Positions 6,025 through 29,540 of a stretch of DNA of 64,000 nucleotides are shown one piece after another; position 1 is the first letter of the stretch; each line of letters begins with the position of its first letter. The notes under the pieces are model-generated. The model searched no databases. It was not told the origin of the DNA and saw only the letters and a program-made list of their open reading frames with translations. The stretch covers positions 191,830 to 255,829 of the forward strand of contig NZ_AQHJ01000022.1 of the NCBI RefSeq assembly GCF_014925405.1, in the 5' to 3' direction. The stretch comes from Pseudoalteromonas ulvae UL12. Lineage in GTDB: Bacteria > Pseudomonadota > Gammaproteobacteria > Enterobacterales > Alteromonadaceae. The position numbers and the translations under genes are program-made.

Positions 6025-6365
6025 GACTGATTTTTCCGATCCGCGACCACACCCAGCACAATAAAAATCACACTCACAACGGGTGCTAACCATACATTTT
6101 TCAGACTCGCTAAGCCATTTGCAATGAACGGCGTCAACCACAAAGTCAGCGCCCCATAGCCAAATGCCGTAATCACAATAAACAGCACTGTTCGGATAAT
6201 AAAATGCTGTCGCCCTACTATGCCTTTTATGAACTTATTCAGATCATTGGCATACAAGGCAATCAAACACACAGTGATCAGCATGGCGATTTGACTCAAA
6301 TAGGGATGTAAAAACTGCGCAGCAAACTGCAATCCATCAAACAACCATTGAGTTAGCTTATCCAC
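6021..6365 (-). CDS. DUF3392 inner-membrane protein
   Basis: A 114-aa protein with three hydrophobic segments (about residues 20-40, 55-80 and 90-110). It begins with GTG inside the last codons of ligA (an 8-base overlap) and overlaps the next gene by ATGA, so it is translationally coupled on both sides. Its sequence matches the DUF3392 family of marine gammaproteobacteria; no function is known. Because its upstream partner ligA is interrupted, any present transcription must come from within or near the left end of the element. Confidence 0.75.
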
Positions 6366-7281
6366 CTAATTGCTCCAATAGCGCGACTAAGTCATCTTCA
6401 AGCAACACAGGCACGCCTAAATCTTGTGCTTTGGTTAACTTGGAGCCTGCTTTATCACCTGCCACCAGCGCATCTGTTTTTGCCGAAATACTGCCCGATA
6501 CTTTCGCGCCCAGCGCTTGTAAGCGATTTTTGGCATCACTTCGCCCCATTTGTGACAAGGTGCCCGTTAGCACATACGTTTTGCCTGCAAGTGGTTGCTC
6601 ATCTTGTGTTTTAACTACAATATCAGGCCAAGACACACCTGCAGCAAGCAGTGCATCAACAACTTCTCGATTATGCGCCTCTTTGAAAAAGAAATTCACA
6701 TGCTTTGCAACAATTTCACCGACGTCTGAGACATCTTGTAAACTTTCTACTGACGCTGCCATCACTTTTTCTAACGTCAGGTAATGATTGGCCAGATTCA
6801 TTGCCGTGGCTTCGCCAACTTCGCGTATGCCAAGCGAATATAAAAAGCGATTAAGACTGGTTTGCTTTGCGGTTTCTAAAGCGGCAATTAATTTCTGCGC
6901 TGATTTTGGCCCCATGCGCTCAAGGGATTCTAAATGCCCTTGTTTGAGTAAAAACAAATCGGCAGGTGTATGAATTAACTCTCGATCGACTAACTGCTCA
7001 ACTATTTTGTCACCCATGCCATCAATATCAAACGCTTTGCGTGAGGCAAAGTGCTTAATCGCTTCTTTACGCTGTGCCCCGCAAACTAACCCGCCACTAC
7101 AACGTGCTACGGCTTCGCCCACAGTTCGCTCAACATTAGATTGGCAAATAGGACACTGAGTTGGAAACTCAATGTCTTTAGCCTCATCGGTTCTGCGCTC
7201 TAGCACCACTTGGGTAATTTGTGGGATCACATCGAAGTCCGACCCCTGAAACTTGTCAATTAGTATACTAACTCCCATCAA
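6358..7281 (-). pseudogene. ligA: ligA 3' fragment (C-terminal part of DNA ligase)
   Basis: This encodes about 290 native residues from VIPQITQVV onward: the four-cysteine zinc finger (CPICQSN...[10 protein letters not shown]), the helix-hairpin-helix region and the BRCT domain ending ALLEQLGG. The NAD+-binding and adenylation domains are absent; they lie at 28.4-29.5 kb. The first 16 codons of the open frame (7234-7281) come from the inserted element, and host sequence begins at the ACATC core. If translated it could not ligate by itself. Joined at ACATC to the other fragment it gives an in-frame LigA of 673 aa. Confidence 0.95.
7225..7248. other. Left attachment site (attL) with end repeat
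   Basis: Host GATC joins core ACATC (7229-7233), then a 6-base spacer and CGACCCCTG (7240-7248). The inverted partner of this motif lies at the other end. A perfect palindrome TTAGTATACTAA (7260-7271) follows and could be a recombinase arm site. Confidence 0.75.
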
Positions 7282-7380
7282 TGTATACCTATTTCATTGA
7301 AAATATTATATTTTTTTATTGGCATTTAAGAAACCTTGAGCTTTAGTAAGTGAGAATTATGTAATATAGGAGTATAATTC

Positions 7381-28301: not shown

Positions 28302-28311
28302 TTCAATCTCT

Positions 28312-28394
28312 CCTTAATGAGCTACTAAAGAACTATTTATTAGTTCTCTATTTGATAAATAATTGTGAATATATGCAGGGGTCGCATTTACATC
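28312..28394. other. Right attachment site (attR) and ligase handover
   Basis: Core ACATC at 28390-28394 is followed inward by 5 bases and CAGGGGTCG (28376-28384), the inverted copy of the left motif. Inward, AGAACTA/TAGTTCT (28329-28347) is a further small palindrome. The element gives the interrupted host frame 24 extra codons and a stop at 28314-28316. Confidence 0.75.
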
Positions 28395-29540
28395 ACCGGC
28401 ACGGCGAATTATCACCGTATCACCAATTTTGACACCTAAGCGTTCAATTTCGTCTTGATTATGTAATGTCGCATTCGAGACAGTGACACCACCGACAAAC
28501 ACCGGCTCCAAACGGGCGACAGGGGTAATTGCGCCTGTGCGCCCAACTTGAAACTCAACATCCAATAATTGGGTGATCTCTTCTTGTGCAGGAAACTTAT
28601 ACGCAATCGCCCAGCGCGGAGCACGTGCAACAAAGCCTAAGGTTTGTTGCAGTGCTTTTTCATTAACTTTGATCACCACCCCATCAATTTCATATTTAAG
28701 GGTACTGCGCCGAGTCATAATATCTTGATAATACGCCAATGCCTCATCTACGCCCGTCACCAGCTTCGTTTCTGGGCTCATGGGTAATCCCCAATCGCCG
28801 AGAGCTTGCAACTGCGCGTAATGATCATCCGGCACTACGCCCCCTTCAATAATGCCCATCCCATAGGCATAAAACATCAATGGGCGGTTGGCGGTCACTT
28901 TCGAGTCAAGTTGACGCAAGCTGCCTGCGGCTGCATTACGTGGGTTTGCAAACACTTTGCTGTCGTTTTTAAGCGCGTTTTCATTCATTTTATTAAAACC
29001 AGCGCTATCCATAAAGACTTCACCGCGCACCTCTAAGCGTGCCGGCACGGTATCTCCACGCAGTTTTAGTGGTACATTACGAATGGTTTTCACATTTTCA
29101 GTAATGTTTTCACCGGTTTGACCATCGCCGCGGGTAGCCGCTCTGACTAACACTCCATTTTCGTACAAAATCGAGACAGCTAAGCCATCGAGTTTGGGTT
29201 CGCAGCAAAAGGTCAGTGTTGAGGTATCTTTTAATCTATCTTGCAAGCGCTTATTAAAGCTACGAAATTCTACTTCATCAAACGCGTTATCTAAGGACAA
29301 CATTGGCACTAAATGCGTGACTTGACTGAAATGACTCAGCGCTTCCCCACCCACTTTCTGACTCGGTGAGTCGGCGGTTAGTAAGTCTGGATGAGTCGTT
29401 TCAAGTGCGATCAGCTCTCGCATTAAACGGTCGTACTCAGCATCAGGAATGCTTGGGTTATCCAACACATAATATTGATAATTGTGTTCTTCTAATTGGG
29501 TTTTAAGTGCTGTAATCGCTTCGGTGACTGCGTGTGTCAT
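28314..29540 (-). pseudogene. ligA: ligA 5' fragment (N-terminal part of DNA ligase)
   Basis: This encodes about 383 native residues, then 24 from the element. It contains domain Ia ([19 protein letters not shown]), the whole adenylation domain with Lys116 in EPKLDGLA and DGVVIK, and most of the OB fold up to RRAGDV. It lacks the zinc finger, HhH and BRCT parts. ATG 29540 is preferred, with GAGG upstream. In known LigA enzymes this part is enough to self-adenylate but ligates poorly, so the product may be inert, weakly active or interfering. It provides the transcription and translational lead-in for the element ligase. Confidence 0.95.

Follow-up and report, generated by a model that had tools for sequence, protein, structure and literature searches.

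The gene for the NAD+-dependent DNA ligase LigA of Pseudoalteromonas ulvae UL12 is cut in two by a 21,155-bp insert (7235..28389), and within this insert lies a second NAD+-dependent ligase. Such a ligase is essential in bacteria, and we consider it highly probable that an integrative element has recombined within ligA and replaced its function with a ligase of its own, leaving remnants that may erode. Positions are those of the window, the whole 64,000-nucleotide stretch of DNA that was analysed.

Anatomy of the split ligA and its insert

Read on the minus strand, the gene order in the window is smc, zipA, ligA. The ligA frame breaks after ...RRAGDV, and the remainder, beginning IPQ..., lies 21 kb off at 6358..7234. 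The break falls inside the OB fold, at GDVIP. By Pfam, the N part has the adenylation domain together with most of the OB domain, and the C part has zinc finger, HhH and BRCT. A sequence-only reading had claimed that the two parts lie 21 kb apart with ACATC at both breaks, that joining them gives an enzyme of 673 aa, and that the element between them carries recombinases and a 645-aa NAD+ ligase. These claims are borne out: ACATC is found at 7229 and at 28390, the joined length (counted by hand) fits a start at the second Met, and the insert holds two tyrosine recombinases and the 645-aa ligase. The features, in minus-strand order, are as follows.

30546..33959, minus: smc, upstream of zipA in this reading
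29651..30409, minus: zipA, between smc and ligA in this reading
28314..29567, minus: host LigA N part plus 24 codons of element end (ORF, 417 aa)
28390..28395: 6-bp spacer, N side, ACATCA (TGATGT in ligA sense)
28376..28389: right terminal repeat, AAATGCGACCCCTG in ligA sense
28302..28313, minus: 12-nt gap from the truncated ligA stop to the ligase ATG, holding GGAGA
26364..28301, minus: element-borne NAD+-dependent DNA ligase, 645 aa, in ligA orientation (Pfam)
25214..26305, plus: cargo, PIN_12 protein, 363 aa (model matches)
23086..23955, minus: cargo, WYL-domain protein (model matches)
17224..23207, minus: cargo, type I restriction-modification hsdR, hsdS, hsdM (model matches)
14206..17221, minus: cargo, HamB-like helicase (772 aa) and a 234-aa neighbour without match (model matches)
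11784..13115, plus: TR3, 443-aa tyrosine recombinase (R, HxxR, H and Y columns; PF00589 under cut-off)
11237..11791, plus: SM, small protein of 184 aa (ORF, no known domain)
9198..11240, plus: TR2, large tyrosine recombinase, 680 aa as listed (R, HxxR, H and Y columns conserved)
7381..9291, plus: TR1, 636 aa (degenerate tyrosine-recombinase pattern, by eye only)
7235..7248: left terminal repeat, AAGTCCGACCCCTG
7229..7234: 6-bp spacer, C side, ACATCG (CGATGT in ligA sense)
6358..7234, minus: host LigA C part, comprising the OB fold end, zinc finger, HhH and BRCT (within an ORF listed from 7281)

The last 24 of the 417 aa in the truncated N-part ORF are element sequence, and the GGAGA in the gap that follows, read by eye, is likely a ribosome site. 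The two 14-bp terminal repeats are imperfect inverted copies of one another (12 of 14 positions identical, counted by eye), and GC content in the insert is 31-39% per kb, as against 37-48%, mostly 40-46%, elsewhere in the window. The four-gene module TR1-TR2-SM-TR3 adjoins the ligA C piece, and two of its four products are tyrosine recombinases. TR2, the true start of which is possibly downstream of 9198, has no Pfam match. TR1 has neither a Pfam nor an NCBIfam match, profile comparison gives no kinship between it and TR2, and its structure model has a mean pLDDT of 54, falling below 50 in the part of interest; its standing as a degenerate tyrosine recombinase, a pattern seen by eye only, is unsettled. 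Small ORFs at 24085-24682, among the cargo genes, are perhaps remnants: they show a below-cut-off match to an Xre/MbcA/ParS C-terminal domain and the beginning of a low-molecular-weight phosphatase.

The element-borne ligase has an adenylation domain with the KLDG motif, OB fold, zinc finger, HhH and BRCT, though HhH and zinc finger score under the Pfam cut-offs and the whole protein scores under those of the NCBIfam LigA models. The host LigA pieces match it at 27 and 31%. Its AlphaFold2 model (mean pLDDT 81, pTM 0.53) is matched by Foldseek to E. coli LigA (5tt5) with E 6e-32 and probability 1.00; the whole-length TM-scores are low (0.38-0.42), which we read as domains being placed differently in the model. 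A protein search scored 7997 sequences, of which 1903, perhaps with ordinary LigA among them, match at E 1e-40 or better, and an alignment was made of the window's ligase with 41 of the best 120 matches. The ligase is under purifying selection (dN/dS 0.04-0.20 in seven pairs). It would appear to be a divergent but complete NAD+ ligase and a candidate substitute for LigA. Two possible sources were considered and set aside: a viral origin, for which viral_contigs hold no confirmed relatives of TR3 or the ligase (the phage records listed, 20 of 65, match the ligase at 25-29%), and a plasmid origin, for which the best of 88 matching plasmid records reaches only 43%.

An intact ligA elsewhere in the genome, which the sequence-only reading had itself named as fatal to its case, was looked for in all 4.74 Mb (34 contigs). 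The NAD+-ligase search gives three matches only, namely the 645-aa ligase, the LigA N piece and the LigA C piece, and no intact LigA. The comparison with relatives that it had proposed was made with 20 genomes besides that of the window, 12 of the same genus and eight of other families of the order: the LigA N part matches within an open frame of 672-725 aa in all 20 (one TAA being counted in four), and RAGDVIP[QK] is continuous across the break position in 19/19 loci checked.

Across 108 Pseudoalteromonas genomes searched at 1e-60, the element's ligase is present in three (the window's, G024 and G028), so that it seems to have come into this genus. LigA lies in one long frame in 104 genomes; we count among these G078, where the match stops at residue 566 of a 651-aa frame. 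It is in two pieces in the window's genome (the pair described above, on one contig) and, on two contigs, in G028 and in G049, and is not found at 1e-60 in G024. Both pieces in G049, which has no ligase of the element's kind, stop at contig ends, and this therefore looks like an assembly break. LigA is accordingly found in all 105 non-carriers, one of them cut by contig ends, and no genome of the genus with LigA split inside a contig lacks the ligase. In an even sample of the class, the ligase is present in 6/369 genomes at 1e-120, the window's own included, and none of the six has an intact LigA.

Recurrence beyond Pseudoalteromonas

The sequence-only reading had suggested a survey of split ligA genes for a second ligase nearby. 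In a ligase scan of genome_contigs, from which the best 80 of 278 confirmed places were kept, 20 of these 80 loci have a LigA N piece immediately upstream of a ligase that lies in ligA orientation. In 58 of the best 80 the ligase follows zipA at no more than 3 kb and/or smc at no more than 5 kb, and 37 of these 58 syntenic loci have neither an N piece nor a scored relic. Fifty of the best 80 were used to reach whole genomes, and 49 genomes were searched for LigA. That an element lands in ligA and brings a substitute, as had been proposed, is upheld here: none of the 49 genomes has an intact LigA, and neither does any of the three Pseudoalteromonas carriers. Both LigA pieces are found in 16 of the 49, the N piece only in three, and no piece at 1e-8 in 30; two of these 30 encode in addition a more distant LigA-like protein, its frame about 497 aa long. 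The C pieces in these 49 genomes are mostly still open frames; stop codons within them were considered as a sign of decay and abandoned, because the stops counted can lie in the element end (there is a TGA in GGTGACACTT).

It was the ligase that led to these cases, and since most elements were found in this way, the presence of a ligase in them proves nothing. When cases are chosen instead by TR3, all eight matches at E below 1e-130, three from the order sample and five from 175 Acinetobacter genomes, are in genomes with a split ligA and the ligase (G672 and G142 are the same by coordinates). Among 20 stretches fetched, 16 have a C piece, and in 12 of the 16 a full TR1-TR2-SM-TR3 module starts beside it. 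The remaining four are L151, with a divergent set in the same order; L142 and L147, which are cut by a contig end; and L150, which has no module and a reduced C piece.

The point at which ligA is broken differs among carriers. It is near residue 150 of the reference in one genome; near residue 338 in Alteromonas, Ferrimonas, two Acinetobacter and, on the N side, P. luteoviolacea B; and near residue 384 in the window, Photobacterium, Psychromonas, Marinomonas, Ketobacter and three Acinetobacter. LigA pieces that share a contig are about 10 to 72 kb apart. At the N-side end, a GGTGTCACC-type motif and TTTCAAxTAG stand exactly 23 bp apart in 18 of the best 80 loci. At the C-side end, GGTGACACTT or a variant of it is frequent and is followed by a 6-bp spacer. 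The two spacers are unequal in the window, L138, L144, L146, Ferrimonas and Ketobacter, and equal in Psychromonas and L139; it is suggestive only that unequal spacers might be footprints of earlier hosts. From the truncated ligA ORF to the ligase is 11-12 nt in five of the nine cases where both ORFs are listed. As for the cargo of other elements, 6/10 proteins match defence models, mostly of type I restriction-modification.

We propose that the four-gene module most likely crosses over at the 6-bp spacer between the short inverted ends. The element end that comes to lie beside the ligA N piece would bring a stop, a ribosome site and the ligase in ligA orientation, so the ligase could be expressed from the zipA-ligA side and could take over ligation at once. 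Insertion would thereby be survivable and the host made dependent on the element; loss of the ligase, as the sequence-only reading supposed, might then be lethal. The element could also bear further genes as cargo, such as the restriction-modification set and the HamB-like gene seen here, and later erosion of the ligA pieces and the rest of the element would leave the new ligase in place of ligA.

Relics, direction and competing readings

At three loci at least, ligA relics show apparent erosion of the element. At locus L080 the ligase is the only gene between relics of ligA: N relics and then an end-like sequence precede it, and a C relic lies about 30 bp beyond it. L006 and L033 have ligA relics on the N side. 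Of 20 hand-picked resident loci, four (L010, L019, L020 and L027) have, ahead of the ligase, a leader that resembles the element's beyond 200 of 200 shuffles; in the other 16 it does not. LigA relics seen by eye in L019, L020 and L027 were discarded, the LigA profile giving no score there, and only the leaders of these loci are element-like.

A quick tree was made from 64 ligases (63 from the best 80 loci, plus the window's) and nine intact LigA sequences. The ligases form one side of a fully supported branch, with intact LigA on the other. By eye, element-borne ligases fall at about seven places in the tree; resident copies stand next to them, and host families are mixed. The tree has four label changes against a shuffled mean of 10.0, a number as low being found in 0/500 shuffles (40 unlabelled rows left out), which says that element-borne copies are clustered in the tree and not random.

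The direction might nonetheless be the reverse of that proposed: the ligase could be an old chromosomal enzyme of some Gammaproteobacteria that islands took up later, in which case relic-free ligases behind zipA would be ancestral rather than the residue of eroded islands. Methylococcaceae and Glaciecola, which carry the ligase behind smc/zipA with no ligA relic or module in the stretch read, are in keeping with this, as are the 16 leaders unlike that of the element, and authors describing a comparable island in tmk leave the same question open (PMC10653934, in part). Against it are the ligA relics at three loci, the four element-like leaders, the places of element-borne copies among resident ones in the tree and, within Pseudoalteromonas, a ligase restricted to three of 108 genomes, which argues for arrival there. 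We regard reversal as unlikely.

A second reading makes the ligase chance cargo, the insertion in ligA being tolerated through an ATP-dependent ligase. A search with PF01068 at 0.001 in 22 genomes gives a match in 15, including the window's, where a small ATP-dependent-ligase-like protein is encoded in a 287-aa frame (G000:C22:209645-210115) that we take to be of the LigE type; the NAD+ ligase is thus perhaps not the sole ligase there. The other seven genomes have no match, however, and two of these are Acinetobacter with a split ligA, in which no ligase but the element's was found. The constant association of ligase and insertion also counts against chance, both in the TR3-chosen elements (8/8) and in Pseudoalteromonas, as does a related module lying in a presumed comM with no comM copy in the stretches read. 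Taken together, these observations leave chance cargo very improbable. Apart from this, in three genomes of 1.4-1.6 Mb (G273, G390 and G488) the sole NAD+ ligase seen is a member of the family to which the element's ligase belongs; in G488, a single contig of 1.5 Mb, the gene (C1:282443-284316) looks broken before BRCT, with BRCT in a separate frame.

It is scarcely credible, third, that the LigA halves are expressed apart and form a working two-part ligase while the element's ligase serves the element. A two-part NAD+ ligase from phage has been solved (9hu3, 9i5i), and the C pieces are mostly open, but the OB fold itself is interrupted, at GDVIP, 30/49 genomes have the ligase family without any LigA piece at 1e-8, and for tmk the corresponding idea of split halves was tested and rejected (PMC10653934, in part). 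Finally, an assembly error at a junction of insert and ligA, which the sequence-only reading had raised against itself and which a draft of 34 contigs might invite, is very unlikely, to the point of being negligible, as the same anatomy and end motifs recur in other assemblies, one of them a closed chromosome (Acinetobacter sp. KCTC 92772). Insertion in ligA with replacement by the element's own ligase therefore stands as our preferred reading.

Comparison with described elements and related modules

The claim that no described element has such a design does not hold: an island in tmk (PMC10653934), the RME in recA (PMC4405046) and SE-6283 in bcp (PMC9345347) are published, and the principle is thus already known. 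What is said of published systems here draws on parts of the papers cited. In Pseudomonas putida KT2440, tmk is cut by an island with a substitute dNMPK, PP_1964, at one end; PP_1964, akin to phage T4 kinase, was shown by experiment to be essential, stand-alone kinases replace tmk in some strains, and of the four genes that such islands share, two encode tyrosine recombinases, one a TetR regulator and one a protein of no stated function (PMC10653934, in part). The ligA element is like the tmk island, to judge from that account, in that an essential gene is split, a same-function substitute lies at one end, and stand-alone substitutes occur at the locus. It is unlike it in its target gene, and in that the direction of the stand-alone cases is left open there, whereas ligA relics are present here.

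The recA gene is not strictly essential. The recA mobile element, or RME, lying within it has a divergent recA at one end, an integrase at the other and 9-bp inverted repeats. Its circularisation has been demonstrated, as have the restoration of recA and insertion into that gene, one strain being reported (PMC4405046, in part). As far as that description goes, it resembles the ligA element in having a host gene as target, a divergent copy at one end and a recombinase at the other; it differs in its target, recA as against the essential ligA.

The ends of the ligA element recall those of the strand-biased circularizing integrative elements, or SE, which have imperfect inverted ends with a 6-bp spacer and four core genes at one end in the order intA-tfp-intB-srap, including two tyrosine recombinases (one of them large) and one small gene (PMC10214605, in part); SE-6283 lies within bcp and carries its own bcp (PMC9345347, in part). 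Imperfect inverted ends with a 6-bp spacer are found in the window, and similar ends in other ligA elements. The gene order TR1-TR2-SM-TR3 differs from that of SE, however, and there is no clear profile kinship with one SE-ordered module, that of pBT2436 (SE by gene order only), against which hhalign gave at best a probability of 34%, over 50 columns of TR2, and 1.3% or less in six other comparisons; TR1 against the protein in Tfp position was one of the pairs compared. GInt elements carry ginA-ginB-ginC-ginD at one end, with the small gene last and variable cargo; 6-nt staggered cuts are proposed for them, targets include the end of ssb or an ABC transporter, and insertion probably leaves the target not completely inactivated (PMC5385486, in part). 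Three recombinase-type genes and one small gene at one end are a likeness to the ligA element, but the small gene, last in GInt, is third here, which sets the two apart by description.

Among the titles and abstracts listed in the literature searched, none describes an island in ligA. What is new is the essential ligA as target, a module ordered unlike those of SE and GInt, the use of several target sites, the breadth of hosts, and the relics of replacement in place. On a more general proposal our judgement is evenly divided: that ligA-homing islands are a distinct tyrosine-recombinase group (TR1-TR2-SM-TR3) which hops from ligA to ligA across Gammaproteobacteria, always with its own ligase, holding the host hostage and repeatedly and permanently replacing a core replication enzyme at its own locus.

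Replacement of ligA would extend the tmk type of island to an essential enzyme of DNA replication and repair, and the series from fresh insertion to bare replacement would make it possible to trace, step by step, how a mobile element displaces a core gene. It would also open a way to test the dependence of a host on an element. The ligase of some species is not the usual LigA, which calls for caution where it serves as a marker gene or drug target. Attention is drawn, too, to a recombinase module known mostly as unnamed proteins.

Relatives of this module occur outside ligA. TR3 matches at 1e-10 are present in 8/394 genomes of the order, three of them ligA cases, and in 9/175 Acinetobacter genomes, five of them ligA cases; there are relatives on plasmids too. 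For the five further genomes of the order and the four Acinetobacter, the stretches read contain neither LigA nor the ligase (G933 lies outside this statement, and the whole element was covered only in G905). In G905 (C5; L168, L184), an insert of about 13.7 kb that bears a related four-gene module splits a magnesium-chelatase-family gene (Pfam), of which the stretches read show no further copy. We take the gene to be comM, which is dispensable, and the lack of a copy on the element fits with this. In another Acinetobacter (G993, L209:3790-4729), a related module lies beside a ParA-like gene, the first residues of which look replaced; the next ~40 kb hold no second ParA copy. The same module order is seen on a Providencia plasmid (L179) and a Pseudomonas aeruginosa plasmid (L178), near umuD/umuC and near tellurite genes, and the module proteins on plasmids are annotated as hypothetical or integrase.
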